Shown one piece after another: positions 5,701 to 25,427 of a stretch of 64,000 nucleotides of DNA; position 1 is the first letter of the stretch, and every line of letters begins with the position of its first letter. The stretch is from NCBI RefSeq assembly GCF_000682755.1, contig NZ_AWFF01000076.1, forward strand, positions 62,001-126,000, written 5' to 3'. The stretch is from Hyphomonas beringensis (GTDB lineage: Bacteria; Pseudomonadota; Alphaproteobacteria; Caulobacterales; Hyphomonadaceae). The notes beneath the pieces are model-generated. The model was not told the origin of the DNA and ran no database searches. It saw only the letters and a program-made list of their open reading frames with translations. Made by a program: the position numbers and the translations under genes.

Positions 5701-5756
5701 AGCAGACAAAACGCGGCAAGGATGAACCGCGCCTGCTGGCTCAGCCACCGGCTCAT
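2730..5756 (-). CDS. RND-family efflux permease
   Basis: 1008 residues, the usual size of an inner-membrane resistance-nodulation-division pump. It has one N-terminal helix, a large periplasmic porter region with PTIQFPRL and the RPVEDALRAVPGV repeat region, a block of helices around 325-480, a second porter domain, and a last helix block. The TM4 segment around residue 400 reads AVGLIVDDIVVMLE with the two proton-relay Asp residues in place. The form is closer to HAE/CusA-like branches than to SecDF. It overlaps the fusion protein gene upstream and PAP2 downstream by 4 bp each. The substrate cannot be told from sequence; nearby copA makes a metal or biocide possible but unproven. Confidence 0.92.
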   Translation of the reverse strand: MSRWLSQQARFILAAFCLLTAGGGFALTQLPVSLFPTIQFPRLAVSLEAGDRPVDQMEALVTRPVEDALRAVPGVRNIRSQTSRGSAEVSVTFDWGGDIVTAALQSESELARLAPSLPPGFAFQIRRMDPTIFPVMGYSLTSDTLSQVEMKTFAQFTLRPLIASIDGVVEVSVLGGRDAEYEVLVDPARLKARDLSVLDVETAISTSNIVSASGRLEDQSRLYLTIVDDQLTGAEDIGNIVLKSLAGGGAVEVSDVADIRLAVAPDWTRVTADGKPAVLLNIRQSPDANSLALTTAVKNTIARERVAFPKDLTLTSYYDQSDLVVSAAGSVRDAILIGTLLAGLVLLFFLRSLRLVLIVAILLPSVLAATALLLMVMGQSLNIMTLGGMAAAVGLIVDDIVVMLEHVARRLAEGTKGVLEAASEMLQPLVGSSFATIVVFTPLAFLSGVTGGFFKALAITMASSLVLSMIFAMTVVPVLARTLARKEDAIRAEGAAGWLDGLARAYAGLMRKLLGHARVAAFLLVVAALGAGTLSSSRIASGFMPQMDEGGFVLDYVAPPGLSLTETDRLVSQMEEIIQTIPDVASYSRRTGVQLGGGLTEANEGDMFIRLTPFPRRPIEAVMSEVRQRVAESVPGLEIETIQLMGDLIGDLTAVPQPIEVKLYGNDPGSLSIAADQALLALEGVRGVVEVRKSDRTAGDAIVVRLDRTALAFEGLDPADVGAQLQTLVGGRSAGAILAGQRSLNIRLWSPPELRQRVPQIEDLMLRAPDGHLVPLERVASVETVSGQAQSSRENLQPMTAVTGRLEGRDMGSAMVDVRQAIGALALPAGVRYEFGGLYAEQQKSFNDLMAVFAAAFLLSGLLLLFLFKSLSQAVSILGVVGLSVAGVLTGLVLTGTELNISAMMGLTMVIGIIAELGVFYFAELEGDGATHDDRISAGQARLRPILMSALIAILALAPLALKVGQGSALLAPMATAIISGLIVGAPLVLIAAPLIHAALSRRSVAAP

Positions 5757-8190: not shown

Positions 8191-8473
8191 TATCGCCTCC
8201 TAGGATAAGGGTTTTGAGCCAATGCGGCGCCATTCGATCCAATCTGGGGTGCCGGTTGATTTGTCTTGCCATCCACTGCTTACCCTGGCGTGAGTTGCGG
8301 GCCAGCAAAGCCGCGCCCGCCACGCCAATTCCAACGCCGATCGGTATGAATGGAAACGGCGTCAGGATCGCGATAGGAACAGACAGGATGAGAAGCAGTA
8401 CGCCCGTCCCCGCCAGACTGACTCGCCAGACGGATACTCTCTTGCGGGGGCTGTTTTGTACTTGCTCAGTCAC
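8183..8473 (-). CDS. Small two-helix membrane protein
   Basis: 96 residues. A basic N-terminus is followed by two hydrophobic stretches (about 18-38 and 42-58) and a basic amphipathic tail (ARQINRHPRLDRMAPHW). I do not recognise a characterised family; the helix-hairpin layout resembles small proteins of the PGPGW/DUF454 type, but the diagnostic motif is not seen. It overlaps the histidine kinase gene by 8 bp and the TolC-type gene by 8 bp, so it is clearly part of the operon and might modulate the kinase or the pump. Confidence 0.75.
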   Translation of the reverse strand: MTEQVQNSPRKRVSVWRVSLAGTGVLLLILSVPIAILTPFPFIPIGVGIGVAGAALLARNSRQGKQWMARQINRHPRLDRMAPHWLKTLILGGDNV

Positions 8474-9848
8474 GTGATTTCAACGCCTCCGAAAATGGTT
8501 TAAATCCCACGCGGACCGCTAGACCAGGCTTTGCATCTGAAAGTCGCAACCCGGCCTTATGCAGGTCGGCAATAGCCTTCACCAGGGCAAGTCCGAGGCC
8601 GGACCCCGGCGTATGTCGCGCCTTGTCGAGACGGTAGAACCGCTCTGTAACCCGCTCATATTCCTCTGGTGGAATGCCCGGTCCATCGTCGGATACGCTA
8701 AGCCAGACGCCATTCAGGCCGGAGCCGGTTTCGAGCCGGATTGTTGCGCCCTGACCCGCGTGCCTGATCGCATTCTCGATAAGGTTGGCGCCAAGTTGGG
8801 TGAGAAGGTCCTGATCACCATGTACGAGCGTGTTGGCATCCATGTTTGAAGAAACCAGTAATGTCTGTCCCGCATCGTCGCAGACTGCAGCATAGGCCTC
8901 GTACAGGGCTGCTGCGATACCGGCGATCGGGACAGCGCGAAATTTGGCCTTGCGGGCCCCCGCTTCGATTTGCGAGATTCGTAACAGCGCATCGAATGTG
9001 TTGGTGATCTGACGGATATTCGACGACGCCTGATTCAGTTTGTCCTGAAGCGCCGGCTGGTTGCTTGCTTCCAGGGTCAGGCTCTCAACCTGGATGCCGA
9101 GACGATTGATGGGCGTGCGCAGGTCATGGGCGATATCAGCGCTGACCTGTTTTATGCCAAGAACGGTGGCCTCCAGTTGTTCAAGCGCATCATTGATACG
9201 CTCGGACAGTCGGCCGAGATCGTCGCTGTGCCCATGCGTTTCTATTCTTTGCTGCATCTCCCCTGCGGCAACCTTGCTCAGAACGCTTGAGATCGCTTCG
9301 ATCCGCAACTGTCCGCGGCGGGACAATATGAAGGCAACCAGTGCCGAAAGGAGCGTTACAATCAGGGTCGCCGCACCGAAGGACTTGAGCACCGTGCGGG
9401 CAATATCGTCTGTATCTTCATAACTGCGCGCGGTAATCAGGCGAAGATCACCGATTTGCCGGCTTGTCAGGAGGTATGTGTCGTCATCGTCCTGTCCCAG
9501 CCGGGTTCCGGACACATCACCGACTGCCAGGTCTTGTGGATCGGGCAGGCGGTGACCGGCGAGAAATGTTCCATCCGCAAGTCCGAGCCAGACGATGTCA
9601 TCCTCAGGGTCTAGTGCAGTAGCACGCGCCCTAGTCGCCTCGACAAGCGCGTCTCTTCCATCTCTCTCAAAGGTGTCAGCCAGTTCGACCGACATCAAGA
9701 CGGCAGCCTGTTCCACGCGGCGATCAAGGTCGTCATGGATCGCCTGGAAGGCAATCCAGCCCGCGCCGAGATTGGCCAAGACGAATAGGCCTGCCAGAAC
9801 CATGGCAAAACGAAAGTACGTGCTTCGAAGAAGATCCCGGCTAAACAC
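8466..9848 (-). CDS. OmpR-class sensor histidine kinase
   Basis: 460 residues. A periplasmic sensor loop lies between two helices (about 13-36 and 155-175), followed by a HAMP linker, a dimerisation/phosphoacceptor motif ADIAHDLRTP with His241, and an ATPase domain. The ATPase domain has N box NLIENAIRHA, G1 DDGPGI and G2 GSGLGLAL. It is a complete membrane kinase. It overlaps the response regulator gene upstream by 8 bp and should phosphorylate it. The sensory domain is acidic (GQDDDD around 118-123), which could bind cations, but this is a guess. It likely controls the downstream efflux genes in the same operon. Confidence 0.95.
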   Translation of the reverse strand: MFSRDLLRSTYFRFAMVLAGLFVLANLGAGWIAFQAIHDDLDRRVEQAAVLMSVELADTFERDGRDALVEATRARATALDPEDDIVWLGLADGTFLAGHRLPDPQDLAVGDVSGTRLGQDDDDTYLLTSRQIGDLRLITARSYEDTDDIARTVLKSFGAATLIVTLLSALVAFILSRRGQLRIEAISSVLSKVAAGEMQQRIETHGHSDDLGRLSERINDALEQLEATVLGIKQVSADIAHDLRTPINRLGIQVESLTLEASNQPALQDKLNQASSNIRQITNTFDALLRISQIEAGARKAKFRAVPIAGIAAALYEAYAAVCDDAGQTLLVSSNMDANTLVHGDQDLLTQLGANLIENAIRHAGQGATIRLETGSGLNGVWLSVSDDGPGIPPEEYERVTERFYRLDKARHTPGSGLGLALVKAIADLHKAGLRLSDAKPGLAVRVGFKPFSEALKSRD

Positions 9849-10512
9849 GAAGCGTGTATCCTACATTCTTGATCGTATGTAGAAGCTCAGTCTCAAAGGG
9901 TTTGTCGATCTTGGCGCGCAAGCGGCTGATATGGGTCTCGACCACTGTCGTCTGAGGGTCGAAATGGAAATCCCAGACCTGCTCGAGCAGCATGGTTCGC
10001 GACAGCACACGCCCTTCGGACCGCATGAAATATTCAAGGAGCTGGAATTCCTTTGTGAGGAGCTCAATAGGTTGTCCGGCGCGCGTCACGGACCGGCGCA
10101 CCAGATCCATTTCGAGATCGGCAACAGTTAGTCGAGTCTGCTCAACTACCTGGGTGGGGCGCCTGCTAATGGCGCCGAGGCGAGCTGAAAGTTCGGAGAA
10201 GGCGAACGGTTTGGTCAGGTAGTCATCGGCGCCGGCTTCCAGGCCTTCGACACGGTCATCAACACCGCTGACCGCCGTGAGGAACAGGACAGGGGTCTGT
10301 ACATTGGCGCCCCGCATCGCTTTCAACATGGACAATCCGTCCATGCCGGGAAGCATGCGGTCGAGGATGGCAGCGTCATACGAAGCGCGAAGCGCCAGGG
10401 TCAGCCCGTCGATGCCGTCTGTAGCATCGTCCACTACGTGTCCGGCGCCGCGGAGGCCATCGAGCACATATTTGCGGGTGACGTCATCATCCTCGACCAG
10501 CAGTATTTTCAT
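9841..10512 (-). CDS. OmpR/PhoB-family response regulator
   Basis: 223 residues. The receiver domain has the acidic pair in LVEDDD, phosphoacceptor Asp51 (ILDRMLPGMDG), Thr79 and Lys101 (YLTKPF). A C-terminal winged helix (TKEFQLLEYFMR ... VVETHISRLRAKID) binds DNA. It is the partner of the kinase encoded directly downstream with an 8-bp overlap. The probable target is its own operon, including the RND pump; repeated TTACCCT-like elements upstream of the PepSY gene are candidate binding sites. Confidence 0.96.
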   Translation of the reverse strand: MKILLVEDDDVTRKYVLDGLRGAGHVVDDATDGIDGLTLALRASYDAAILDRMLPGMDGLSMLKAMRGANVQTPVLFLTAVSGVDDRVEGLEAGADDYLTKPFAFSELSARLGAISRRPTQVVEQTRLTVADLEMDLVRRSVTRAGQPIELLTKEFQLLEYFMRSEGRVLSRTMLLEQVWDFHFDPQTTVVETHISRLRAKIDKPFETELLHTIKNVGYTLRV

Positions 10513-10541
10513 GTTTCAGCCCCCTGCGCCGACCGGTTCTG

Positions 10542-11582: not shown

Positions 11583-12068
11583 TTACCAGGCTTCGTATGC
11601 CTGGCCTTCCTGCGCACCCTGAAGCAGACCCAGCCATTCGGCGATCATGGCCGGGCGGTCCCTGTTCTCGATTTCGATATGGTTTTCTGTCTTGATCAGA
11701 TATTGCCTGTCGCCACGGTCGCGAACCTCCAGGAGGCGCATCCGATTCCGTATGCGGCTGCCGACAGGAACAGGCTCGATCCACCTGACGCGGTCGAGGC
11801 CGTAATTGTAGGCATACACTACGTCCTCCGGCAGGAAATCGAGCGCGTGACTGAAATGTGTAAGCAGTGAAAGAGTCAGAAAGCCCTGGCCGATCGTCTG
11901 CCCCACAGGGCCGCGTTTGGCGCGCTCGACATCGATGTGCATCCAGTCGGGGTCAATCGTTACATCGGCGAACCGGTTGACCTGCTCCTGGCTGATCTGC
12001 ACCCACGGCGAAACGCCCAGCTCTTGACCGGTTTTCTCAACAAGCTCTTCAAGTAGTCTTACGCTCAC
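11583..12068 (-). CDS. MaoC-like (R)-specific enoyl-CoA hydratase
   Basis: 161 residues, single hot-dog fold domain. The hydratase motif is clear: the ITIDPDWMHIDVERAK segment followed by GPVGQTIGQGFLTLSLL, with the Asp/His dyad region characteristic of MaoC and NodN dehydratases. It hydrates trans-2-enoyl-CoA to (R)-3-hydroxyacyl-CoA. Translation most likely begins at GTG 12068, seven bases after AGAGGA. It lies 12 bp behind the acyl-CoA ligase and should be co-transcribed, placing it in the TetR-controlled regulon. Together they activate and then partly oxidise a carboxylic acid. Confidence 0.88.
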   Translation of the reverse strand: MSVRLLEELVEKTGQELGVSPWVQISQEQVNRFADVTIDPDWMHIDVERAKRGPVGQTIGQGFLTLSLLTHFSHALDFLPEDVVYAYNYGLDRVRWIEPVPVGSRIRNRMRLLEVRDRGDRQYLIKTENHIEIENRDRPAMIAEWLGLLQGAQEGQAYEAW

Positions 12069-12080
12069 AATAGCATCCTC

Positions 12081-13652
12081 TTACACCGTGTCGCATTCGA
12101 GCATTTCGGCGAGCGCGCCCTTGTCCACCTTGCCAATTGGCAATAGCGGAAACTCTGACAGCGGAACAAATGATTTCGGTATTTTGTAGTTTGCCATGCG
12201 CGTCCCGAGGAAATCCTTGAGCGCGTCTGGCGCGAGTTCGGCTCCGTTTTTCAGACGAATGAAAGCAGCGCCGACTTCCTGGAATTTCGGATCGGGGATG
12301 CCGATCACTACCGCTTCCAGAATGTCCGGGTGTGTCTCGATGGCGAGTTCGACTTCGCGCGGATAAACATTGTAACCGCCGGACTTGAACATGTTCTTCG
12401 ATCGACCGCAGATTTCAACCAGGCCGTCGGCGCGCAGAAAGCCCAAGTCGCCGGTCTTAAGGAATCCATCGGCGGAGAAGGCACCCTTCGTGCTCCTCTC
12501 ATCTTCGAAATAGCCGATGAAGTTGGTCGGTCCGCGAACTTGAAGCTCTCCGACTTCCCCTTGAGAGAGAGGCGCGTCGGTCTCAGGTGCCGCGATCCGG
12601 AGCTCGATCTCGTCAATCGGCGTACCGATCGTCTCGGCCAGTTGGGCTTCGGACGCATCGTCAGGGGTGAAGCAGACATGGCATGACGTCTCGGTCATGC
12701 CGTAAGCCGCTTTCAAGCGCGCGCCTCGCGCTGAGAATTGCCCGACGGCACGCTGGGACATCGCGGCACCACCCCAGAGGACGAGCTCTACGGAAGACAG
12801 ATCGGTCGATCGAAACGCTTTCTGCTCCAGTAGGGCATGAAGCATTGTTGGAACGCCGCCGATAATGGTCAGCTTTTCCTGTTCAATCGTTTCCAGCATC
12901 AGTATCGGGTCGAAGGCCTCCTGAAAAACCAGTGTTCCACCCCCGACCAGGGTCGTTGCACAGATATCCGCAACACAACCGACATGATTGATGGGCAGAT
13001 TGCAGATGATTTTGGGGTCACTGACGGCAAAATGAGCCGTTTGTATCTTTGCGCCAGCCGCGAGCCCGTGGTGAGAAATCAATGCTCCCTTGGGCTTTCC
13101 TGTCGTGCCGGACGTAAAAACGATCAGTGCCGGATCAGAACCGCTTGCCGCGAATCCTTCGCTATCATCTGCCACAGGCGGGTGTGCCGGCTTCAACCGT
13201 TCAAGATTTGCAGACGCGCTGTCTGACGCATGAAGCCGCACCCGTTTCGGGAGTGCGCTGTCTTTGGAAAGCGCCAGTTCTAGCCGCCCCGGACGCTCTC
13301 CATCTGAGACTTCGAGCACCAGCTTGGGACGGGAGAGAGAGGTAACGTGGCTAATTTCCTCTGCGGAATATTTCGGATTGATCCCGACCCAGATAGCGCC
13401 GACCGAAATCGTCGCGAGGAACATGATGTAGAACTCCGGACGCGGCGCGGACATCATGGCGACGCGATCTCCGCGCTCAATTCCTGCCTCGATCAGCCAG
13501 GCGCGCAGAACACACACGCGCTGCTCTAGCTCGAGATATGTCCAGCGCTCGTGCTTGAATATGACGGCCGTCTTCTGAGGGCATGCGATCGAAAGGTCTT
13601 TCAGGGTGGATGGTAAGCTGCCGCTTGTCTCTTTGCTCTCAACGCCGCTCAT
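12081..13652 (-). CDS. Acyl-CoA synthetase / AMP-dependent ligase
   Basis: 523 residues from ATG 13652 (a TTG six bases earlier is possible). The adenylation superfamily motifs are all present: VFTSGTTGKPKG (P-loop), YGMTETS, GDLGFLRADGLVEICGR, GYNVYPREVE and the C-terminal Lys in GKVDKGAL. The enzyme forms an acyl-AMP and then an acyl-CoA from a free acid; chain type cannot be read from the sequence. The operator at 13692-13707 is 40 bp upstream, between it and the divergent TetR gene, so repression by that TetR is likely. It forms an operon with the MaoC hydratase. Confidence 0.93.
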   Translation of the reverse strand: MSGVESKETSGSLPSTLKDLSIACPQKTAVIFKHERWTYLELEQRVCVLRAWLIEAGIERGDRVAMMSAPRPEFYIMFLATISVGAIWVGINPKYSAEEISHVTSLSRPKLVLEVSDGERPGRLELALSKDSALPKRVRLHASDSASANLERLKPAHPPVADDSEGFAASGSDPALIVFTSGTTGKPKGALISHHGLAAGAKIQTAHFAVSDPKIICNLPINHVGCVADICATTLVGGGTLVFQEAFDPILMLETIEQEKLTIIGGVPTMLHALLEQKAFRSTDLSSVELVLWGGAAMSQRAVGQFSARGARLKAAYGMTETSCHVCFTPDDASEAQLAETIGTPIDEIELRIAAPETDAPLSQGEVGELQVRGPTNFIGYFEDERSTKGAFSADGFLKTGDLGFLRADGLVEICGRSKNMFKSGGYNVYPREVELAIETHPDILEAVVIGIPDPKFQEVGAAFIRLKNGAELAPDALKDFLGTRMANYKIPKSFVPLSEFPLLPIGKVDKGALAEMLECDTV

Positions 13653-13691
13653 GACCAATCTCGCTTCTGTGAGTGAACCTCGTAACTTTTT

Positions 13692-13707
13692 TTGATATCT
13701 GTGTCAA
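13692..13707. promoter_or_regulatory. TetR operator candidate, copy 1 of 5
   Basis: TTGATATCTGTGTCAA, matching the 16-bp palindrome TTGAY(N6)RTCAA also found at 18095, 18124, 20270 and 20356. It lies in the divergent promoter region of the acyl-CoA ligase and the TetR gene. A half-site, TTGATATATTTGTG, follows at 13742. Confidence 0.65.
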
Positions 13708-13809
13708 ATTTATATAGCGCCGCCATAATTCCTTGCAAAAATTGATATATTTGTGCATTTTTAAGCTTAATTGGCCTATCCTCGGCCAAGTATATTGAGG
13801 TGGACCACA

Positions 13810-14601
13810 ATGCCCGCAGCCCGCAAAGAATCAGAGAGGACGAAAAGTCCTGTATCGAAAGGCAAATCTGCCATGCCGGTTGCAGACCTGGCTTGCCACC
13901 CTCTATCGTTCGACATGGCCGAAGTGTTCGACGAGCAACAAGACGCGCCAGGTCTGACCAAAGGGCAGCGCACCCTTCTGAAGGTGAAAGCAGCTGTCGC
14001 ACGTGCGCTAGAGCAGACGCCTTACCAGATGCTCCGCATTTCGGATGTCGCTGACCAGGCCCAGATTTCGTACGGACTTTTCTATCACTATTACAAGGAT
14101 AAGGAGCGCGCGACGGTCGAGGTCCTGCTGGACTTCCTGGAGCATCTCGAAAAGACCTATGCGCAGATCCACGTCAGTGACGATGACTACGCGTCGCTGT
14201 ACCAGCCCAATCTGTTCTATCTCGATGTGAATCGCAGAAATGCCGGTCTCATCCGTGCCTGCCTGACTGTTTCGGAGGAAGTCGAATCCTTCCGCGAACA
14301 GTACACTTTGCTCATCGACCGCTGGCACCGCCGAATGGCCCAGTCGATCCGGCGGAACCAGAAAACAACCGACGAGCTCCTGCCGGATGCCGAACTTGTC
14401 GCCTATGGCGTCGGCGGTATGATCGACCAGTATTGTCGGCAGGTTTACGCCCAGCAGAATCCATTTTTGTCTCGGCTCATCGAGAACACCCACCACTTCG
14501 CGGAAACGGTTTCCATCATGTGGTACCGTGCCGTGTACGGGCGATCTCCGACGAAGCAGCAGATCCTGAATTGCCGCCCAGATCATAAATCGGGCGAGTG
14601 A
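13810..14601 (+). CDS. TetR-family transcriptional regulator
   Basis: 263 residues from the ATG at 13810, chosen because GAGG lies nine bases upstream; an earlier in-frame ATG at 13771 lacks this. An N-terminal extension of about 50 residues precedes the helix-turn-helix (MLRISDVADQAQISYGLFYHYYKDKE), followed by a long ligand/dimerisation domain. The HTH form (YGLFYHYYKDK) is typical of TetR proteins. It is divergent from the ligase-MaoC operon and shares an intergenic region with operator copy 1, so autoregulation and control of the flanking catabolic genes are expected. The inducer is probably a substrate or acyl-CoA intermediate of the pathway (inference). Confidence 0.93.
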   Translation: MPAARKESERTKSPVSKGKSAMPVADLACHPLSFDMAEVFDEQQDAPGLTKGQRTLLKVKAAVARALEQTPYQMLRISDVADQAQISYGLFYHYYKDKERATVEVLLDFLEHLEKTYAQIHVSDDDYASLYQPNLFYLDVNRRNAGLIRACLTVSEEVESFREQYTLLIDRWHRRMAQSIRRNQKTTDELLPDAELVAYGVGGMIDQYCRQVYAQQNPFLSRLIENTHHFAETVSIMWYRAVYGRSPTKQQILNCRPDHKSGE

Positions 14602-14632
14602 AGCGCATCATCAGATAACGGGATGATGCGCT
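14602..14632. terminator. Bidirectional hairpin between tetR and aminotransferase
   Basis: Perfect 11-bp stem AGCGCATCATC / GATGATGCGCT with a nine-base loop, filling the gap between two convergent genes. There is no long T-run, so it is a plausible but not classic terminator. Confidence 0.6.
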
Positions 14633-14638
14633 CAGGCC

Positions 14639-15751
14639 TTACTCGGATAGCGCATCACTCAGGGCCTTGCTGAGACAGCTCAATCCCTCGGATAGCTCGT
14701 CGCGTTGAGGCCACGCATAGCCAACGCGAAAATATCGCCTGGACTGTTCAAACCAGTGTCCGGGCCCGACATATGTGCCGTATTTGTCGTTCAATATCTC
14801 GTAGAACCGGTTGATATCGACCTTGATGTCTTCTCGAATTCTGGGGAAACAGACACAGCCTCCCACAGGGCGCACCCATTCGAACCGGTCATCGCCTTCA
14901 ATCCACGCCTCCACGAGACTGAGATGGTCAGCGATCAGTGCATTGTTTTCTGGAAGCCACTCTTCCCGTTGCTCCAGCACTTTCAAGGCAACCGCCTCGT
15001 CGAGGACGCTTCCGCAGATGGTAACCTGCTCTTTGGCGCAGAGCAGCCTGTACATAAAGTCCTTGTCCGTGCTCGCCGCCCAGCCGATGCGGATGCCCGG
15101 CACCCCATAAGTCTTTGACAATGAGGACACAGCGACGGCCATCGGACTGAGAGAGGCTGCGGACGGAAGGACCTGTTCGCTCGCCATTTCCCGGTACGTC
15201 TCGTCAACGAGAACCCGAATTCCGCGCGACTCGCCGAGCGCAAGAATGGATTTCAGGTCATCGACCGAAATCGACGCGCCGGATGGATTGTGGGGAAAGG
15301 TCAGGCTGATGAGCTTGGTCTCTGGGCGCAACAGCGCCTCTAACTTCTCAGCGGATACCTGAAACTTCTCCTCGAAGGCGAGGTCGTAATAGGAAATGTC
15401 GCATTCAAACATGCGCGGAGTTTCAATGTTTGTTGCATAGTTAGGCCGTACAACCACGATGTGGTCTCCGCGCTCCAGCGTCGCCATGGAGATGAAGAAC
15501 AGTGCCGCCGCTGCGCCTGGTGTGATCAGAACGTCTTCTTCATCGATCCCACCGCATACTAGCGCGACCGCCGCCCTGAGTGACTTTTTGCCCAGGTGAT
15601 CATCGTAGCACAGTAGGTCGTCCTGAATCGTTATGCCCAAATCCTTGAGCGAGCGATCGCGCACAGAGCTTTCGGTCAAGTTGTACTTGATGCGCTCATA
15701 TCCGAATTGTTCAGGCGATTCCTGCTCGATCGGCATCCGGACCAGCTTCAT
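14639..15751 (-). CDS. PLP-dependent class I/II aminotransferase
   Basis: 370 residues from ATG 15751, preceded by GGAG at six bases; a TTG at 15763 is less likely. Fold-type I features: the cofactor-binding ITPGAAAALFFIS, the substrate-side SLTFPHNPSG, the LVDETY Asp, and the Schiff-base Lys in SSLSKTYGVPGIRIGW. The C-terminal Arg that holds the substrate carboxylate lies in SRRYFRVGY. It transfers the amino group from an amino acid to a 2-oxo acid, or acts on a related amine. Because the region also encodes an amino-acid permease and a deacylase, it probably processes the released amino acid. No TTGAY palindrome lies directly upstream. Confidence 0.9.
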   Translation of the reverse strand: MKLVRMPIEQESPEQFGYERIKYNLTESSVRDRSLKDLGITIQDDLLCYDDHLGKKSLRAAVALVCGGIDEEDVLITPGAAAALFFISMATLERGDHIVVVRPNYATNIETPRMFECDISYYDLAFEEKFQVSAEKLEALLRPETKLISLTFPHNPSGASISVDDLKSILALGESRGIRVLVDETYREMASEQVLPSAASLSPMAVAVSSLSKTYGVPGIRIGWAASTDKDFMYRLLCAKEQVTICGSVLDEAVALKVLEQREEWLPENNALIADHLSLVEAWIEGDDRFEWVRPVGGCVCFPRIREDIKVDINRFYEILNDKYGTYVGPGHWFEQSRRYFRVGYAWPQRDELSEGLSCLSKALSDALSE

Positions 15752-15826
15752 TTCTGTCTCCAATTCATAGGTCCCTGCACGGAGGAACCGTTCTGAGTTT
15801 CAAAGGTGTTTCGTTAAGAGATGGGG

Positions 15827-15855
15827 CAGGGCATCAGCGCTTCGGCGATGCCCTG
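15827..15855 (-). terminator. Terminator of the TonB receptor gene
   Basis: Nine-bp stem CAGGGCATC / GATGCCCTG with an 11-base loop, 24 bp beyond the receptor stop on the minus strand. The T-tract is short. Confidence 0.5.
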
Positions 15856-15878
15856 TCTCAATTGGCCGCGGCGACTTT

Positions 15879-18080
15879 CTAGAAGTCGAAAGACAGCATG
15901 ACGCCGTATGTCCTCGGCTCGCCATATGTGGCGAAACGCTGCTCGACGCCGATGGTCGATGCGAGATTGCCGCCGTCATAAGCTGCGATCACATAATCTT
16001 CATCGGTGATGTTACGCGCCCAGAAGAATAGAGACACACCATTCTGTGAGGTCACGCCAATTCTGCCGTTCAAAGTCTTGATGGAGTCGAGCGCAGACGT
16101 CGGGTCCAGGCCATCTCCTGGTGTGTCGCTCCGATAGGAGTAATCAAGCCGTCCTGTGGCTTCCAGATTGGCGCTGATCGGACGGGTATACTGGGCCGCC
16201 GCACTGAGCGTCAGGTCCGGTGCATCAAGCCGCGTTCCGCTGAGGTCTACGCCTGGCGCGGCGTCCGGATAGCTTTTGTATTCTGCATCCGCATAACCAA
16301 CCGCGGCCGAGAGATCGAGGCCCTCGGCAGGCCGGGCGGAGAATTCGACTTCAAAGCCCTGGCTGCGTGCCTCTGCTGCGTTCGCCGTCTCGAAACTGCT
16401 CGTCACAGAGTTGAAGCGGGACACCTGGATATCCTCATAACTCATGTGGAAGAGGGCGACATTCAACCGCGCGCGGCGATTGAAGAAATCCGTCTTCAGA
16501 CCGACTTCATAACTGTCGATCGACTCCGCGTCGAAGATGATGTCTTCGGGATCCGGCGAGCTAAGAATGTCTGCGTTCCAGCCGCCGCTTTTGAAGCCGC
16601 GCGCATAACGTGCGTACAGCAAAGTGTGGTCTGTCGGGCTGAAGTTCAGGCCGATCGTAGGCGAAAGATCTTCTTCCTCGATCTCGTCGCTGAAAGGGGC
16701 GATCGTCGGAAGCCCCAGAACATCGATTCCGTCCTGACCGAAGACCAGGTCCTTGCTTTCCTTATTGTAGCGAAGACCACCTTCAAGCTCGAGACGGTCG
16801 GTGATGTCTACACTCAGATTGCCGAAGAGCGCGAACGACTGGGTTTCCACAGTCCCGAAATATGTGAGGTCATTAAGCAAGGCTGGAGGCACGCCAAGTG
16901 CGCCCAGCGTTGACCGCATGTCTGAGCCGAGGACGAGAGATCGGGAGGAATCTGAATCCTGATCCAAATAGTATATCCCGGCGATATAGCGCCAGCGCTG
17001 GTCCTGAGGCGAGGCGAGCCTGATCTCCTGCGTCAACTGGGAGATCTCGTCGATATAGTCTGTGGCAAGATAAGATGCCGGTTCACCATCAAGGTCGGCA
17101 TCCGGCAATCCATATTCGATATTGCGCAGCGCCGAGATGGACGTCAGCTCATAGCCGGAGTCGAACGTGTATTCTGCCGTGAGAGACGTGCCCGACAGAG
17201 TCCGGTCTTCCTTGTTCTTGCCATCAATGGAGACAGTCCTTGGGCCCGGAACATCCCCGACAAGCGGAAGCCCGACGGGATTGCTGAGAATGGCTTCAAC
17301 TTCACCATTCAGCACCCGTCGGTCAGCTGCGGTATAATCGCCCCGCAGAGCGATATCGAGCGCGGGTACCGGTGTGTAGCGAAGCTCGCCGCGAACACCC
17401 CAGGTGTCTTCATTGTTGACTGTTTCTGGTCCGTCCGGATTGATGTTCTCGACGAAACCGTCCCGCTGGCGCACATATCCGGAGAGTTTCGCGGCCAGTA
17501 TACCTTCGACGAGCGGCCCCGACATATAACCTCCGACGTGAACGTGATCGAAGTTGCCATATTCAGCGAAGACGCTGCCCTCAAAATCATCTCCTGGCCG
17601 GCGGGTGACGATATTCAGCGCCCCCGAAACACTATTCTTTCCGAAAAGCGTGCCCTGTGGCCCGCGAAGAACTTCCACGCGTTCGATGTCGTCGAGCTGC
17701 TGATTGAAGCCTGACGTTCGCCCCATATACACGCCGTCGACATATACCCCGAGACTGCTTTCGAATCCGACATTGCGTGCCCCGGAAGAAACGCCTCGGA
17801 TAATGAAGTTCGGATTGAAGTCGGTTTGCGAATAAATTGAGAGATTGGGCACCGCATCTTGCAGGTCGCGCAGCGATTCGGCGCTTCGGTTTCTCAATTC
17901 GGTTTCGGATATGGCGGTAACGGAGATCGGCACATCCTGAATGTTCTCAGCGCGCTTCTGTGATGTGACGACAACCACATCCAGCCCAAGATCATCTTGC
18001 GCTGCAGCGGACAATGCCGGCATCCCTGCAAGTGCGATTGCTACAGCCGAAACTGTCTTAAACAAGTCAGATAACCGCAT
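15879..18080 (-). CDS. TonB-dependent outer membrane receptor
   Basis: 733 residues from ATG 18080, chosen because GGAGG stands five bases upstream and a proper signal peptide (MRLSDLFKTVSAVAIALAG) follows; longer frames would run through two operators. A TonB-box-like VVVTSQKR lies near residue 30. The plug domain carries ERVEVLRGPQGTLFGKNS, and the C-terminal beta-barrel ends in aromatic Phe (LSFDF). It imports a scarce, larger solute across the outer membrane using TonB energy. Operator copies 2 and 3 sit 15 and 44 bp upstream. It is most likely the uptake gate for the substrate of this catabolic cluster; there is no sign it is siderophore-specific. Confidence 0.95.
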   Translation of the reverse strand: MRLSDLFKTVSAVAIALAGMPALSAAAQDDLGLDVVVVTSQKRAENIQDVPISVTAISETELRNRSAESLRDLQDAVPNLSIYSQTDFNPNFIIRGVSSGARNVGFESSLGVYVDGVYMGRTSGFNQQLDDIERVEVLRGPQGTLFGKNSVSGALNIVTRRPGDDFEGSVFAEYGNFDHVHVGGYMSGPLVEGILAAKLSGYVRQRDGFVENINPDGPETVNNEDTWGVRGELRYTPVPALDIALRGDYTAADRRVLNGEVEAILSNPVGLPLVGDVPGPRTVSIDGKNKEDRTLSGTSLTAEYTFDSGYELTSISALRNIEYGLPDADLDGEPASYLATDYIDEISQLTQEIRLASPQDQRWRYIAGIYYLDQDSDSSRSLVLGSDMRSTLGALGVPPALLNDLTYFGTVETQSFALFGNLSVDITDRLELEGGLRYNKESKDLVFGQDGIDVLGLPTIAPFSDEIEEEDLSPTIGLNFSPTDHTLLYARYARGFKSGGWNADILSSPDPEDIIFDAESIDSYEVGLKTDFFNRRARLNVALFHMSYEDIQVSRFNSVTSSFETANAAEARSQGFEVEFSARPAEGLDLSAAVGYADAEYKSYPDAAPGVDLSGTRLDAPDLTLSAAAQYTRPISANLEATGRLDYSYRSDTPGDGLDPTSALDSIKTLNGRIGVTSQNGVSLFFWARNITDEDYVIAAYDGGNLASTIGVEQRFATYGEPRTYGVMLSFDF

Positions 18081-18094
18081 TCCGGCCTCCATAA

Positions 18095-18110
18095 TTGACA
18101 ACAAAGTCAA
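18095..18110. promoter_or_regulatory. TetR operator candidate, copy 2 of 5
   Basis: TTGACAACAAAGTCAA, directly upstream of the TonB receptor ribosome site, where a bound repressor would block the transcription start. Confidence 0.65.
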
Positions 18111-18123
18111 TAATGAAAAGTTT

Positions 18124-18139
18124 TTGATAATTTTGTCAA
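18124..18139. promoter_or_regulatory. TetR operator candidate, copy 3 of 5, over the receptor -35 box
   Basis: TTGATAATTTTGTCAA. Read on the minus strand its first six bases are TTGACA, a consensus -35 box. CATTAT stands 18 bases downstream as a likely -10. The two operators therefore flank this promoter. Confidence 0.65.
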
Positions 18140-18251
18140 CTTTTATAATTGCTGCCCATTGCGCCGTTTTCCGAAGTGACAAATTTACAACAAGTTTATT
18201 TAGGTCGAATCATGTGCCCCCAGGCCGGAAAATGGCCCATGCCTATGCGGA

Positions 18252-20213
18252 TCAGTTTCGCAGCGAAAATACGGGCAGTGTGCCGGCGAAGGCCTCGCGC
18301 ATCGCGCTGTCGCCACCGTCCACCGGAAGGATTACGCGTGTGTCTGCGTCGCCGGTCACTATTGTCCAGGTTGCATCTTCCTGGAGCGGAATACGATCAA
18401 ACAGGCCCTTATCTGCGCCAGCCAGAGAGATTCGGATCCGGTATCCGGCGGGCAGCTCCACGGATGTCGCGAGAAGATCGATACGAAGATCGAAGACCTC
18501 GCTTGGTAAAGCTTCAGCCCCGTCCTCGCGCCAGAAGCCAGGAGGCGGCGTTGGCAATTGATAGGGGGGCTGACGATCTGACGTGCGTCTGTGCAGCAAG
18601 CGCATGACACCCTCGGTAAGGTAGACGACGTCACCGTCCGGCGACACGCCTTCAAGATAGGCAATGACGAGGCCGTCGCTTGCCGTGGTCGACATTTTCA
18701 GGCTGATGGCAGGCGCGCCCGTTATCGTGATGGCGCTCTCCGTCGGTGGCGTTTCGAAAGTAATCCGCGGGCCGTCTGCCAGGGCAGAGGATTTGTAAAC
18801 CACATCGCCGCGGTCCATCTGCGTGTGCCATCGGGTCGAGCCTCCGGTCGATACATCGAAATCGACGCTATACGTCACCTCTTGCTTCGGAGCCTGGCCG
18901 CCGAGGCTTACAGAGACCATGTCGACGCCAGCAGGGGGCCAGACATCGGTTTGCGTCCAGGTGCGGGCGCCCATAGTAAAATAGTGAAGTTCGGACTGGG
19001 GCGGTGCTTGCCGGCCCGGCTGACGCAAGTGCCTATCAAAGAAGTCGGCAACTTGTTCCCATTGCTCTGAAGTGCTTGGTACTGGCGACGTGTCGGTAGG
19101 CGCAAATGGGTCCACATCCTGCTCACCGCCATGTGACCACGCGCCGAGATATACCGTCTGCGGATTGCTGAAGGTCATATATCTGGCAATTGCGCCGTCG
19201 GCGGTCGCTGCATCCATCCATCCTGCCAGGACGAACATGGGCGTATTCGATCTCTCGATTTGGTCTTTCGCTCCGTAGGGGCTGACATCCTTCAGTGACA
19301 GACCGTCAGCGCCCGCCATTTCGTCATCCCTGAATTCGACCGTCTTCAGCGCGTCCAGGACATTGTTGCTGCGCCGCTTCTCAAGAAGTTTCGAAAGCGT
19401 CTTGCCGGACCGGTCCTGATCGACGGGCTTTACGCCGCGGGTCCACCATTTCACGAGAAAGCAGCGCCAGGCGGGCGATTGCGCGAGGAGGCAGATGTCG
19501 TTCTCGTCCAGTGCGGCATTTGCCTGCCCCCATTGCGTAATGAACCCTGTATTAAATGCGCCGCCGGGCATGGCATTGTGAAACTGGGGATCGAAATCGC
19601 TGAAGAGAGGGGCAACGGCTCGCACGGCCGGTGTATTCGTCGTCGCAAGCATCTCGGCGGTGTTTCCTGAGTAGGAGACACCAAGAGCGCCGACGGCTCC
19701 GTTAGACCAGGGCTGCCTCGCGGCCCATTCGCCAATTTCTCCGAAATCCTCGATTTCTCGCGGGGACCATTCACTCTGGCGGTCACCGCCTGAGGCGCCT
19801 GTGCCGCGTGCATCAACCTTGATGACGATGAAGTCCCGCCGGTTGAGCGCATTGACGATAGTCGACTCGTCTGGCGAGGTGTCCAGCAAGCCGGCTCCGA
19901 AAGCTGCGCGCTGCAGCCAGCCTATATGTTCGGCCCGCCAATAACGGGTCATGGTCATCAGAACCGGAAGGTCTTGCTGCGGCTGGATGTCGGCGGGGAA
20001 CCAGATGTCGATGGCGATGTCGGTGCCATCGGACATCTCGACATATTGCGCGATATTGCGCGGCATGCCGATCGCCGTTTCCCTTTCCCCGGTAAGCTTC
20101 GTGAAGGCGACGAGGCAGAGAACAATCACGCTCGTCAGCAGTAGGATAATAAGCATCAGGGCGCCGGCCGCTTGAATAACCGAACGAAAGAGAGGCCGTT
20201 TCAGAGAAGGCAT
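18252..20213 (-). CDS. CocE/NonD-type alpha/beta hydrolase (S15 X-Pro peptidase/esterase family), membrane anchored
   Basis: 653 residues. An N-terminal membrane segment (about 12-38) anchors it or serves as an uncleaved signal. The catalytic domain has DARGTGASGG and nucleophile motif GVSYSG with Ser180. The Asp is probably in LAGWMDAAT and the His in LGAWSHGG. The C-terminal third is the beta-jellyroll of X-Pro dipeptidyl-peptidase and cocaine-esterase type enzymes. Family members cleave peptide, ester or amide bonds; the exact bond here is unknown. It is divergent from the APC permease gene, with operator copies 4 and 5 between them. In this cluster it would act in the periplasm on the imported substrate (inference). 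Confidence 0.92.
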   Translation of the reverse strand: MPSLKRPLFRSVIQAAGALMLIILLLTSVIVLCLVAFTKLTGERETAIGMPRNIAQYVEMSDGTDIAIDIWFPADIQPQQDLPVLMTMTRYWRAEHIGWLQRAAFGAGLLDTSPDESTIVNALNRRDFIVIKVDARGTGASGGDRQSEWSPREIEDFGEIGEWAARQPWSNGAVGALGVSYSGNTAEMLATTNTPAVRAVAPLFSDFDPQFHNAMPGGAFNTGFITQWGQANAALDENDICLLAQSPAWRCFLVKWWTRGVKPVDQDRSGKTLSKLLEKRRSNNVLDALKTVEFRDDEMAGADGLSLKDVSPYGAKDQIERSNTPMFVLAGWMDAATADGAIARYMTFSNPQTVYLGAWSHGGEQDVDPFAPTDTSPVPSTSEQWEQVADFFDRHLRQPGRQAPPQSELHYFTMGARTWTQTDVWPPAGVDMVSVSLGGQAPKQEVTYSVDFDVSTGGSTRWHTQMDRGDVVYKSSALADGPRITFETPPTESAITITGAPAISLKMSTTASDGLVIAYLEGVSPDGDVVYLTEGVMRLLHRRTSDRQPPYQLPTPPPGFWREDGAEALPSEVFDLRIDLLATSVELPAGYRIRISLAGADKGLFDRIPLQEDATWTIVTGDADTRVILPVDGGDSAMREAFAGTLPVFSLRN

Positions 20214-20269
20214 GACGTCGCCCCTTCGTTTGACTGGAAATCAGCGTATTGAACGCCCGCTATCATTTA

Positions 20270-20285
20270 TTGACTTTTGTATCAA
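20270..20285. promoter_or_regulatory. TetR operator candidate, copy 4 of 5
   Basis: TTGACTTTTGTATCAA, 57 bp upstream of the S15-type hydrolase gene on its side of the divergent promoter region. Confidence 0.65.
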
Positions 20286-20355
20286 TTATTGATGCCTAGC
20301 CAAGTTGTGAAATATTTTTGCTTGCAGAAGAAAGAGAGTCTTCCAAATGAATTAA

Positions 20356-20371
20356 TTGACATTGGTATCAA
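20356..20371. promoter_or_regulatory. TetR operator candidate, copy 5 of 5
   Basis: TTGACATTGGTATCAA, 63 bp ahead of the chosen permease start. TTGACA can also be a -35 box. Because an open frame beginning with this TTG exists, the operator argues that translation starts downstream, at 20434. Confidence 0.65.
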
Positions 20372-20433: not shown

Positions 20434-21735
20434 ATGAAAGCCGAAATCAGTTTAACAGGCGCCGTCTTCATCATTGTCGGCTTCGTCATCGGCGCTTCGA
20501 TCTATGTGTTGCCGGGCGACCTCTATGAACTTGCCGGCCCATTTCTCATCATTTCCTTTCTGGTCGCAGCCATACCGGCCGCAATGTCATGTCTACTTGC
20601 GGCCTGCATAGGCTCCGCCTTTCCCAGTGAGGCAGCGAACATAAAAGTGGTTCGGAGGGCTTTGTCTCCTTTTCTGGCGGGAATGACGGCTTGGGGCTTC
20701 GTCGGCGCCTCAATCGTAGGCACGTCTCTTCTTGCCTATGGTTTTTCCGATTACTTGATCACACTTTTCCCAAGCATTGGAGCAGGGCGCGCGGCAGTGG
20801 CCGCCGCTCTCGTCGTCGTGTTTGGAATGATCAATTTCTTTGGGGTGCGAAGCTCTGCCCGAATACAGACCTTGTTGGTCAGTCTGCTAATCATCGCGCT
20901 CTCGGGGTTTGTTGCATTCGGCGTCAAAGATTTTTCGGCGGACAACTTCATCCCATTCAGCGAGAAATCCCCGAATGGCGCAATTCTGGCGATCATTCCT
21001 TCGTTTTTCGCATTCCTGGGTTTCTCTATGGTCGTGGAGATTTCAGGGGACGTCCGGGACCCTGAGCGCAACGTGCCGCTTTCACTGGCTTGGGCGATGG
21101 CCATCATCGTCATGCTGTACATGGCGGCTATTGTGGTTGTGGTAGGTGTCGTGCCTGGCGACCTGCTCGCCGAAAGCAATTCGGCAATCGGTACAGCCGC
21201 TGAGATCATCTCGCCCGGCGTGTTCGCCTTCATCATCAAAGTCAGCGCTCTTCTGGCGGCAGCCACCTCGGTGAACGCGCTTATTTTGTTGTCATCACGG
21301 GATGCGCTCGCGTTCTTCCATATGACGAAACGTGCCGACCGGATCGAGCCTCACGAGAGCCGCCGATCCGAAGGGCTTGCCGTGATCGGCGTGAGTGCGG
21401 CAAGCATCCTCTGCATTCTCTCAGGACTGGATATCGCGACTTATGCCATCATTACGGTAGTCGGATTTCTGCTGTCGCAGATCATCATATGCCTTGCTGC
21501 GATGCGTCTGCCTGACCTTGCAGGCACGCGCTATGAGACGCTGCCTTTTCGTCTTTCGCCTTTGATGCTGCGATCGATTTGCTGGGCGCTGCTGATCTGC
21601 TGCGTTGCCTTCATCGGGGTGAGCTTGCTCGGCAGCGCAGGCCCCGCCATCGCGACGGCTATTTTCTTTGCCGCCGGCGCCGCCTTCTTCAAACTTATCC
21701 AGAAGCAAGATTCATCAGGAAATTTGCATGTTTAA
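20434..21735 (+). CDS. APC-superfamily amino acid permease
   Basis: 433 residues from ATG 20434, which opens directly into TM1. About 12 membrane helices are visible. TM1 reads FVIGASIYVLPG, the unwound Gly-rich substrate-binding segment of APC transporters, and TM6 region reads FFAFLGFSMVVEISGDVRDPERNVP, the conserved stretch after the substrate site. It imports an amino acid or small amide across the inner membrane with protons. It heads a three-gene operon with the S12 hydrolase (8-bp overlap) and the deacylase. Operator copy 5 is in its promoter region. The start is chosen by topology and operator position; the ribosome site is weak. Confidence 0.9.
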   Translation: MKAEISLTGAVFIIVGFVIGASIYVLPGDLYELAGPFLIISFLVAAIPAAMSCLLAACIGSAFPSEAANIKVVRRALSPFLAGMTAWGFVGASIVGTSLLAYGFSDYLITLFPSIGAGRAAVAAALVVVFGMINFFGVRSSARIQTLLVSLLIIALSGFVAFGVKDFSADNFIPFSEKSPNGAILAIIPSFFAFLGFSMVVEISGDVRDPERNVPLSLAWAMAIIVMLYMAAIVVVVGVVPGDLLAESNSAIGTAAEIISPGVFAFIIKVSALLAAATSVNALILLSSRDALAFFHMTKRADRIEPHESRRSEGLAVIGVSAASILCILSGLDIATYAIITVVGFLLSQIIICLAAMRLPDLAGTRYETLPFRLSPLMLRSICWALLICCVAFIGVSLLGSAGPAIATAIFFAAGAAFFKLIQKQDSSGNLHV

Positions 21736-23704
21736 ACTCGGTATCGCGTTCAAGATTATAGCAGCTCTGGGGCTTTGCGCGGTCTTGTTCGCGTTCGGCT
21801 GCAGCTCCTTTGCACAAGGTTCTGACGCCACCGCCACTGCAGAGGGGGCCGTGCCGCCCAATAGCAAACTGGTGGAGAGTTTTCTCGAAGCGCGACTGGA
21901 ACCGCTGGTCGAAGAGGGCGTAATCCCGGGCGCGGTAATCACCATCGTGGAGGGCGACAGGATCACTGTGCTGCGTGGTCTCGGTTATGCCGATATCGAA
22001 CGCCGCATACCGCTTGATCCTCGCCGCACGCTTGTCCGCATCGGCTCCATTTCAAAGTCGTTCACGGCGGTTGCAATACACCAACTCATTCAGGAGGGGC
22101 GCATCAGCCTGGACGCTGATGCCAATGAATACCTCCGTACTGAACACATCCCCGAAAAATTCGGCGCTCCGGTGACAGTCCGTGATCTTCTTAGCCATCA
22201 AGCCGGTTTCGATGGCAATATCTCTTACGTCTCGTCGACGAGGAGAGATGAAACGCAGCCCGGGCAAGGGTGGATATCACGCCAGCTGAGACGGCTTCGG
22301 CCCGCGGGGCAGGTCTTCGCCTATGATAATAGCGCCTATGCCGTACTTGGGCAGATCCTCGTGGATCAGGAGGGGATGCCATATGGTGATGTCATCAAGA
22401 AGCGTATCTTCGAGCCGCTTGGCATGCGCAACAGCGTTATCGGTATCCCGGTAGACCGGGAGGGCGAGATCGCGACCTGTTACAATCGTGCGAGCGGAGA
22501 GCTCGTCGTGTGCGAGCATCAACTGCTCATGGAAACCTATGGCGCGGCCGGCGACATCAGCCTCACCGGTGAGGACATGGGCAAGTTCCTCATTGCTCTG
22601 CTCAATAAGGGCGAAGCGAATGGCGCCCGAATCCTGGAAGACGCTGAATTCAATGCGTTCAGCTCCATTTCCAGCCGGCTGCATGAGGACGGCCCAGGTG
22701 TCGCGCTAGGTGCCTATGAAATGGGACCGCCAGGACACCACGTGTTCGGCCATTCTGGCGGCATCCGCGGGGGCAGTTCGTTTTACGCCGTCATGCCTGA
22801 AGAAGACATCGCGGTCTTCGTCTCCATAAATGCAAGCCTGTCGACCGATGTCATATCGACCCTGAGCGGAATCGTCAGTCTCGCGACGGCGCCTTCGGTC
22901 GAGAACAATTTCGATCCTGGCGATCTGATGACGTATGAGTTTCCGGCGGCGGTGCCGGGCCTCTTCAACAGCGTGCCCGACACCGGCGTGTCTGAACAAC
23001 ACTGTGCGCTTGGAGAGCTGGAAGGCGAGTATCAATATTTGCGGGCGACGATGTTTTCCAGCCTGACCATGCGCCTCCTGGGCCCCCTAGCGCTCACGCC
23101 TGTCGAGGTTGAACGGCTGGAAGATGGCAGCTGGCGTATCGAAGGCGAGGGGCCGTATGACGAGATTTCGCCATGCCTCTTCAAGCTGCGGGGCGCCTCT
23201 TACGCTGACGGTCAGATGTCCACGCTGATTGGCTTCACGAAAACAGAAGACGGCACGATCATTGGCGGCAGCCACCCACTTGCCGCCTGGGCCAAGGTTC
23301 CCTGGCACGCCTCGGCAATGATCAGTGTCGTGCCGTATTTCGTCTCAATACTCGGGCTGATCATTATTGGCCTTGCCGGTAGCGTGTTCTCCAGCGCCTC
23401 AAGACGCCTCCATGTTGCAGCCCTGGGCGGTGGCGTGCTGCTTCTTCTGGGCCTTGTCTGCGAGATGCAATTCGAGACGCCAGTCTACCAGTATGGAGGC
23501 CATGTCCTACCTGTCCTAGCCTGGCGCATCGCGCTCAATATCGGCCTCGTCCTGATTGCATTTTCGGTGATTTTGGCGGTGAGGCGGATGGTGTCGCGGG
23601 GCAGGGGGGTGCCGGGACGGATCACAGTCTTCCTGATCGTGACCGCGGGCGTGATCAGCCTTTTGTTGAGCGCCTATTGGGGCGTGCTCGGAAAATTCCT
23701 CTGA
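21728..23704 (+). CDS. Class C beta-lactamase-type serine hydrolase (S12) with C-terminal membrane domain
   Basis: 658 residues. The signal peptide ends near AFGCSSFAQ and could be a lipobox. The penicillin-binding fold has the SxxK motif SISK (Ser107, Lys110), the YxN motif YDN (199-201), and HSGG in place of KTG. The S12 family contains D-aminopeptidases, D-Ala carboxypeptidases, esterases and beta-lactamases, so this is a hydrolase of unknown substrate. After a linker of about 100 residues come four membrane helices (about 525-655), which places the active domain in the periplasm. ATG overlaps the permease stop by 8 bp. In context a D-peptidase or amidase role is attractive but unproven. 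Confidence 0.9.
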   Translation: MFKLGIAFKIIAALGLCAVLFAFGCSSFAQGSDATATAEGAVPPNSKLVESFLEARLEPLVEEGVIPGAVITIVEGDRITVLRGLGYADIERRIPLDPRRTLVRIGSISKSFTAVAIHQLIQEGRISLDADANEYLRTEHIPEKFGAPVTVRDLLSHQAGFDGNISYVSSTRRDETQPGQGWISRQLRRLRPAGQVFAYDNSAYAVLGQILVDQEGMPYGDVIKKRIFEPLGMRNSVIGIPVDREGEIATCYNRASGELVVCEHQLLMETYGAAGDISLTGEDMGKFLIALLNKGEANGARILEDAEFNAFSSISSRLHEDGPGVALGAYEMGPPGHHVFGHSGGIRGGSSFYAVMPEEDIAVFVSINASLSTDVISTLSGIVSLATAPSVENNFDPGDLMTYEFPAAVPGLFNSVPDTGVSEQHCALGELEGEYQYLRATMFSSLTMRLLGPLALTPVEVERLEDGSWRIEGEGPYDEISPCLFKLRGASYADGQMSTLIGFTKTEDGTIIGGSHPLAAWAKVPWHASAMISVVPYFVSILGLIIIGLAGSVFSSASRRLHVAALGGGVLLLLGLVCEMQFETPVYQYGGHVLPVLAWRIALNIGLVLIAFSVILAVRRMVSRGRGVPGRITVFLIVTAGVISLLLSAYWGVLGKFL

Positions 23705-23723: not shown

Positions 23724-25427
23724 ATGACGAGACATAGTGGATTTACGCGGCGAGCGGCGCTGCTTTCAGGTGCAGTCACGCTTGCAGGGTGCGCGTCACT
23801 GCCAATCAGAAGGCAGCCCGACATTCTGATCAGGAACGGGCTGGTTCTGGATGGAACAGGGCGCGATGGCGTTCGAGCAGATATCGCCATTCATGGCGAT
23901 ACAATTTCGGCCATCGGTAATCTCGCGGATGTACAGGCGAACTCGGTTATCGACGCGAGCGACCTTGTGGTCTGCCCCGGCTTCGTCAATTCGCTGAGCT
24001 GGTCGACAAACACGCTTTTCGCTGATCCACGATGCATGAGTGATGTGATGCAGGGCGTCACCACGCAGGTGGTCGGCGAAGGCACGTCGATGGGGCCCCT
24101 GAACACATCCCTGCGCGACCAGCTCGCGAACGAGCCTTTCATCGGCGCTGATGATATCGCGTGGTCGACGCTCGGAGGTTTTCTGTCGACGGTGGAAGCT
24201 CGCGGGCTGTCACCAAATATAGTCTCCTTCGTGGGAGCCGCGTCTGTTCGCCGTATCGCGATTGGTGATGACAACCGTTCGGCGACGGCAGACGAGCTGC
24301 AGCAGATGGAGCGACTGGTTCGGCAGGCGATGGCCGACGGTGCGATTGGCGTGTCCTCTTCGCTGATTTACCCGCCTGCAACCTCAGCCGACCTTCAAGA
24401 GCTTTCGGCACTTGCGGCTGCTAGCGCGCCCTCCGGTGGTCTGTACGCGACCCATATGCGCAGCGAAGGCGACAATATTCTGGACGCCCTGGATGAAACG
24501 CTGGCCATCGCCTCATCCGCTGGCGTGTGCGCAGAGATCTTTCATTTGAAGGTTGCCGGCGTTCGCAACTGGCCAAAGGCGCAGCAGGTATTGGACAAGA
24601 TCAACGCTGCCCGCGAGGAGGGCGTCTGCGTCGCGGCTAGCCTCTATCCTTATGTTGCCGGCGCAACCTCCCTGGCTGCCATGTTTCCCCCTTGGGCGTG
24701 GGATGGTGGCTTTGGAGCGCTGCTGGACAGGCTCGATGACAGCGAGACACGCCGGAAGATCGACAAGGAGGTTGAGAGTCAGAACACCGAATGGGAAAGT
24801 CTCTATGCGCTGTGTGGCGGCGCTGATGGCGTGGAGGTTCTAGACCATGGAAATGTCTTGCCTGTTGCGCTTCAAGGGGAGCGGCTTTCGACCATCGCCC
24901 GCCACCTGGAGATGTCGCCGGTTGAAAGTGCCATGCACCTCATCCGGCAAAGCGGTGAGCCGCTGGAGGCGGCCTATTTCGCGATGAACGAAGAGACAGT
25001 CCGAAAAATCCTTGTTCAGCCCTGGGTGAGCATATGTTCCGATAGCGGAGCGCCATCCATCGAGCCGCCATTTACGGAGCAGAGCGTGCATCCGAGGGCA
25101 TTTGGGGCATTTGCGCGGATCCTTGAACGCTATGTTCGTAATGAGGGGATCATCTCGTTGCCCGACGCGGTGCACAGGATGACGGGTCTACCGGCATCGA
25201 AGTTTGGTCTGAGCCGGCGCGGCATTCTTCGCGCGGGAAACTTTGCCGACATCACGATCTTCGACCCAGCCGGCGTTCGCGAACGGGCCACATTCACGCG
25301 CCCTTATGCCTATGCTGAAGGCATTCAGCACGTTCTCACCAACGGCGTGCCAATCGTCGAACTTGGCCAGCATACCGGCCAACTGCCGGGCCGGGCTCTG
25401 CGCGGCGGCGGATTTGTTTCCGCTTAA
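23724..25427 (+). CDS. N-acyl-D-amino-acid deacylase-like amidohydrolase with altered metal site
   Basis: 567 residues. The N-terminus combines a twin-arginine-like FTRRAALLSG with lipobox LAGC, so it is probably an exported lipoprotein. The amidohydrolase barrel follows: ILIRNGLVLDGTGRDG, QGVTTQVVGEGTSMGP, THMRSEGDNI and EIFHLKVAG (the two metal His of D-aminoacylases), and ICSDSGAP (catalytic Asp). The HxH motif expected after the first strand (normally DxHxH) is replaced by NSLSWSTN, so the alpha-metal site is missing. The family hydrolyses N-acyl-D-amino acids. It lies 19 bp after the S12 hydrolase gene in the same operon. It may be active with one metal, since known D-aminoacylases use a single tight zinc; an inactive role is also possible. 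Confidence 0.88.
   Translation: MTRHSGFTRRAALLSGAVTLAGCASLPIRRQPDILIRNGLVLDGTGRDGVRADIAIHGDTISAIGNLADVQANSVIDASDLVVCPGFVNSLSWSTNTLFADPRCMSDVMQGVTTQVVGEGTSMGPLNTSLRDQLANEPFIGADDIAWSTLGGFLSTVEARGLSPNIVSFVGAASVRRIAIGDDNRSATADELQQMERLVRQAMADGAIGVSSSLIYPPATSADLQELSALAAASAPSGGLYATHMRSEGDNILDALDETLAIASSAGVCAEIFHLKVAGVRNWPKAQQVLDKINAAREEGVCVAASLYPYVAGATSLAAMFPPWAWDGGFGALLDRLDDSETRRKIDKEVESQNTEWESLYALCGGADGVEVLDHGNVLPVALQGERLSTIARHLEMSPVESAMHLIRQSGEPLEAAYFAMNEETVRKILVQPWVSICSDSGAPSIEPPFTEQSVHPRAFGAFARILERYVRNEGIISLPDAVHRMTGLPASKFGLSRRGILRAGNFADITIFDPAGVRERATFTRPYAYAEGIQHVLTNGVPIVELGQHTGQLPGRALRGGGFVSA

Follow-up and report, generated by a model that had tools for sequence, protein, structure and literature searches.

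Which regulator reads a 16-bp palindrome that recurs at the promoters of one gene cluster in Hyphomonas beringensis, and what do the genes under it do together? An earlier note on this DNA proposed that five copies of the palindrome, TTGAY-N6-RTCAA, define a local regulon belonging to the tetR gene at 13810. We examined this proposal in the 64-kb stretch of DNA that carries the cluster (the window), in the whole 3.80-Mb genome, and in the genomes of relatives.

The gene cluster

The cluster comprises the following genes, with functions predicted as indicated:

11583–12068, minus strand: MaoC-like enoyl-CoA hydratase, 12 bp after the ligase (domain search)
12081–13653, minus strand: acyl-CoA ligase, AMP-binding (domain search)
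13810–14601, plus strand: tetR regulator, 263 aa (Pfam PF00440; PDB 6EL2, E=1e-6)
14639–15751, minus strand: PLP aminotransferase (domain search)
15879–18080, minus strand: TonB-dependent receptor (domain search)
18252–20213, minus strand: membrane-anchored S15/CocE-NonD hydrolase, cocaine-esterase-like (sequence matches)
20434–21735, plus strand: APC amino-acid permease (domain search)
21728–23704, plus strand: S12 serine hydrolase, beta-lactamase fold (PDB matches include ClbP and D-amino acid amidase)
23724–25427, plus strand: N-acyl-D-amino-acid deacylase family, D-aminoacylase (E=1.4e-73), with a Tat/lipoprotein-like N-terminus

These form the units ligase-MaoC (minus), tetR (plus), receptor-aminotransferase (minus), S15 hydrolase (minus), and permease-S12 hydrolase-deacylase (plus). 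Within the last unit, the permease and S12 hydrolase genes overlap by 8 bp, and 19 bp separate the S12 hydrolase from the deacylase. The S12 hydrolase (21728–23704) has several C-terminal hydrophobic segments, a layout recalling ClbP-like D-peptidases. Two further TetR-type genes lie on the same contig, at window positions 35395 and 38295.

A palindrome confined to the cluster

A pattern search of the window placed TTGAY-N6-RTCAA at 13692, 18095, 18124, 20270, and 20356, all intergenic and each at exactly the coordinate first reported. Together with a degenerate copy considered below, the candidate operators are:

13692–13707, operator 1, TTGATATCTGTGTCAA: ligase/tetR divergent region; pattern and profile
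13742–13757, operator 2, probable and degenerate, TTGATATATTTGTGCA: tetR side; profile
18095–18110, operator 3, TTGACAACAAAGTCAA: directly downstream of the receptor -10; pattern and profile
18124–18139, operator 4, TTGATAATTTTGTCAA: contains the receptor -35 TTGACA, minus strand; pattern and profile
20270–20285, operator 5, TTGACTTTTGTATCAA: S15 hydrolase/permease divergent region; pattern and profile
20356–20371, operator 6, TTGACATTGGTATCAA: 62 bp upstream of the permease start; pattern and profile

The window holds six matches to the pattern, against 0.27 expected; the remaining one, at 53056, lies in a coding frame. The whole genome holds 31. Each match was put in context, and all 26 outside the cluster fall in open coding frames, including two that a simple gene finder had left open and that lie in frames of 512 and 313 aa. 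Intergenic location is thus 5/5 in the cluster versus 0/26 elsewhere (Fisher p = 6e-6), and a gathering of at least five of the 31 in any 6.7 kb has a probability of roughly 8e-6 after scan correction. The narrower form TTGAYA-N4-TRTCAA, proposed in the earlier note for a genome scan, has three exact matches, none of them outside the cluster; the 18095 and 20270 sites each depart from it by one mismatch. Between 13692 and 20371, the two arms differ in four of the five strong sites, which join TTGAC to TATCAA and are thus asymmetric, and the commonest form among the copies is TTGAC(A/T)-N4-TATCAA.

A symmetric profile built from the five sites scores them at 25.8–29.4 bits. When each is left out in turn, the other four recover it above every non-site in the window. 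Similarly, a whole-genome scan with a sequence model of the five ranks the same five at the top (E 0.02–0.18); the next place is on another contig, C51, at 582–600 (E 1.4). The profile's best further place in the window is 13742–13757 (19.8 bits), 50 bp away from the 13692 site towards tetR; all remaining non-sites score at most 10.1. This place is weak under an AT-rich background, where 0.014 such places are expected in intergenic DNA, and under the sequence model it reaches only 7.3 bits (E 0.83). The sites probably number six rather than five: the original five are all real, and their count appears to have missed 13742–13757. Should this copy be real, all three control regions would contain paired sites, with centre distances of 50, 29, and 86 bp.

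In the genome scans, then, the operator stands at the cluster's promoters and is absent from other promoters, which is good support for the proposal of a local regulon. The operator set is real and local, and the system is of an ordinary kind.

Operators and predicted promoters

The clearest promoter match belongs to the receptor: TTGACA (18139–18134), an 18-bp spacer, and CATTAT, with 10/12 matches. Its -35 lies inside one site, the overlap that the earlier note had pointed out correctly, and its -10 abuts the other. Predicted promoters of the ligase, tetR, S15 hydrolase, and permease are weaker, and either overlap sites or fall between two. Across the region as a whole, sigma-70 matches do not outnumber those in shuffles, so individual promoter positions are indicative only. 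Even so, the placing of these mostly weak predicted promoters, overlapped by sites or flanked by them, is as expected for repression.

The aminotransferase gene, 127 bp after the receptor, has neither a promoter-like match nor a site of its own. Unit-by-unit inspection bears out the claim that every promoter region except this one carries a site, and the exception is probably explained by read-through from the receptor. A hairpin, GGGCATC-AGCGCTTCGGC-GATGCCC, lies between these two genes at 15821–15860, without a clear T-run.

The permease start is a related matter. The longest in-frame start, TTG 20356, begins at the very base where an operator begins. The start at 20434, favoured in the earlier note, is plausible on this account and because the amino-acid permease domain begins at residue 5; its ribosome-binding site is weak.

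The regulator at 13810

The tetR gene at 13810 is the only gene for a regulator or DNA-binding protein found between 11583 and 25427, and operators adjoin it (13692 and 13742, between ligase and tetR). Its ATG is preceded by GAGGTGG. The protein has a long N-terminal extension, a TetR_N helix-turn-helix (PF00440, 25.2 bits against a cut-off of 24), and the recognition helix SYGLFYHYY. The genome contains 33 TetR_N matches; the recognition-helix segment, ISYGLFYHYYKDK, is unlike those of the 30 other TetRs read, none of which has YGLFY. A degenerate DNA pattern for this helix has one match in this genome, and none in the other 397 genomes of a 398-genome phylum sample. The only regulator gene of the cluster, sites at its own promoter, and a distinctive helix: together these make the 13810 TetR the likely owner of the palindromes.

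By sequence, its best PDB relative is 6EL2 (E=1e-6), which we take to be FadR of Sulfolobus acidocaldarius (FadR-Sa; also 6EN8). The alignment runs past the helix-turn-helix to residue 204; a single-sequence AlphaFold model is poor (pLDDT 41). The recognition helices are nearly identical, AYGLFYFYF in FadR-Sa and SYGLFYHYY here. In FadR-Sa, Tyr47, Gly48, Leu49, Tyr51, and Phe52 touch bases (PMC6449355), which fits the matched chain's VAYGLFYFYFKSK at the recognition helix. The 13810 TetR keeps the first four of these residues and has His in place of Phe52. The FadR-Sa operator is a 16-bp dyad; from four such sites the protein silences a single cluster of 23 genes, and acyl-CoA frees it from the DNA (PMC6449355). 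Both systems thus have a 16-bp dyad that occurs at few sites, within a single gene cluster and among acyl-CoA genes. The likeness resides in the helix and dyad length; overall similarity is weak, and FadR-Sa comes from a different domain of life. Cluster content differs too: lipases and full beta-oxidation under FadR-Sa, peptide- or N-acyl-amino-acid-like functions here.

Taken together, these observations make it likely that the palindromes are the local operator set of a TetR-family repressor encoded at 13810. We propose that a TetR dimer binds TTGAY-N6-RTCAA, at two sites per control region, and blocks the promoters of ligase-MaoC, tetR itself, the TonB receptor, the S15 hydrolase, and permease-S12 hydrolase-deacylase; the aminotransferase would be silenced with the receptor, from which it is probably read through. 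Among the titles listed in literature searches, none was a clear match for a TetR with this operator.

Other readings of the sites

Could the palindromes be accidents of composition? TTGAC resembles a -35 box, and promoter DNA in the cluster is only 38–44% GC, so AT-rich sequence built around -35 elements might yield such dyads. Arms and spacing are fixed, however, the genome's other matches are all coding, and a genome-wide profile scan returned C51 alone among unrelated promoters. Moreover, a family-wise dyad test that allows for post hoc choice of motif (any 5-bp half-site, one transition, spacer 0–20) found five copies in the cluster's intergenic DNA; the maximum among 300 shuffles of the same DNA was four, reached once, and five copies of any dyad appeared in 0/300. 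Chance is thus a highly improbable explanation. A resemblance of the half-sites TTGAT/ATCAA to those of FNR brings FNR/CRP-type boxes to mind, but TTGAT-N4-ATCAA is absent from the control regions, even with one mismatch, and no Crp/FNR gene was found in the cluster. FNR boxes proper are ruled out because their spacing is N4 and that of the cluster sites N6, and we give this whole class almost no credence.

A regulator encoded elsewhere might instead read the sites, placing an acquired cluster under a resident repressor. The first candidate is a TetR encoded on contig C51, which belongs to the core genome and is present in 40/42 genomes of the genus. Like the cluster TetR, it sits at a divergent promoter: TTGACATTTTTGTCAG, which ranks next after the cluster sites in the whole-genome profile scan, lies on C51 (586–601), at the start of its tetR gene and between that gene and a divergent ORF (315 aa). 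This sequence is conserved letter for letter in 23–24 of 29 relative loci inspected. It is nevertheless a single, perfect, genus-conserved palindrome, TGACA-N4-TGTCA, both arms of which occur in no cluster site (four of five have the TATCAA arm), and its TetR has a recognition helix, VANATVLHHFG, unlike that of the cluster TetR. The cluster sites, furthermore, gather around a different tetR gene. The relatives' genomes that carry the conserved TTGACATTTTTGTCAG have no close match to the cluster TetR or permease, which argues that the C51 site has its own owner. Some cross-binding between the C51 TetR and the cluster sites may occur; ownership by this or another distant regulator seems unlikely. 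Alternatively, the 13810 TetR might bind the sites and activate, or both activate and repress, at some promoters. TetR-family activators exist, and weak promoters with paired sites spaced 29, 50, and 86 bp could suit one. Yet the sites coincide with -35, -10, or start regions and do not lie upstream of the -35, and activation by this protein is a quite unlikely reading. Repression by the 13810 TetR, presumably with autoregulation through the sites at its own promoter, is the reading that we carry forward.

Origin and possible function of the cluster

Neither the cluster TetR nor the permease has an orthologue in 105 genomes of the family. Across 398 genomes of the order, no TetR orthologue was found; the identity of relatives does not exceed 33%, the recognition helices differ in those read, and no such site lies near those within the family. 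In 385 genomes of the class the permease lacks a counterpart, a plasmid search gave no close counterpart of the TetR, and a TetR pattern scan of 84,980 genomes gave one weak match only (23%, Ureibacillus). The left flank, in turn, is common to two species of the genus from 2758 to 10513 at about 70% DNA identity, and the likeness stops there, just to the left of the cluster (for one of the two species, the contig and with it the comparison stretch end shortly past 10513). The lack of close counterparts and the end of colinearity at 10513 together mark the cluster as accessory and probably acquired. The regulation is of an ordinary bacterial kind; the controlled cluster is unusual, found in no relative searched.

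The operators delimit a set of genes that are probably regulated together: those for the receptor, the S15 and S12 hydrolases, the deacylase, the permease, the aminotransferase, the ligase, and the hydratase. Such shared control is the best available argument that the genes act on one substrate. Their predicted functions suggest that N-acyl-D-amino-acid or lipopeptide-like compounds are taken up and degraded, and the enzyme set would suit a pathway that imports an N-acylated compound containing D-amino acids and breaks it down stepwise. Any inducer would presumably derive from the pathway. The ligase beside tetR and the likeness to FadR point most simply to an acyl-CoA, which the ligase would make from a fatty acid released by the deacylase; the neighbouring ligase and MaoC genes likewise suggest that the 13810 TetR may bind acyl-CoA. 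More tentatively, one may imagine an acyl-CoA-sensing TetR with a FadR-Sa-like helix, acting at asymmetric operators arranged in pairs. The cluster under its control would have arrived by horizontal transfer and would serve to scavenge or detoxify N-acyl-D-amino-acid or lipopeptide compounds, a pathway for which no description as a unit is known. We consider this full scheme possible rather than probable. For a direct test, the palindromes narrow the choice of duplexes and candidate inducers to a few.

Comparable arrangements are known. EdcR of the estradiol edc cluster in Caenibius (PMC8700777) and AtuR/RdmA (PMC9973270) are local TetR repressors of catabolic clusters, with operators at the promoters of their own clusters; their operator sequences and substrates differ from those here. 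With pathways built on D-aminoacylases and ClbP-like D-peptidases, the cluster appears to share a D-aminoacylase-family deacylase and an S12 hydrolase with predicted C-terminal membrane segments.
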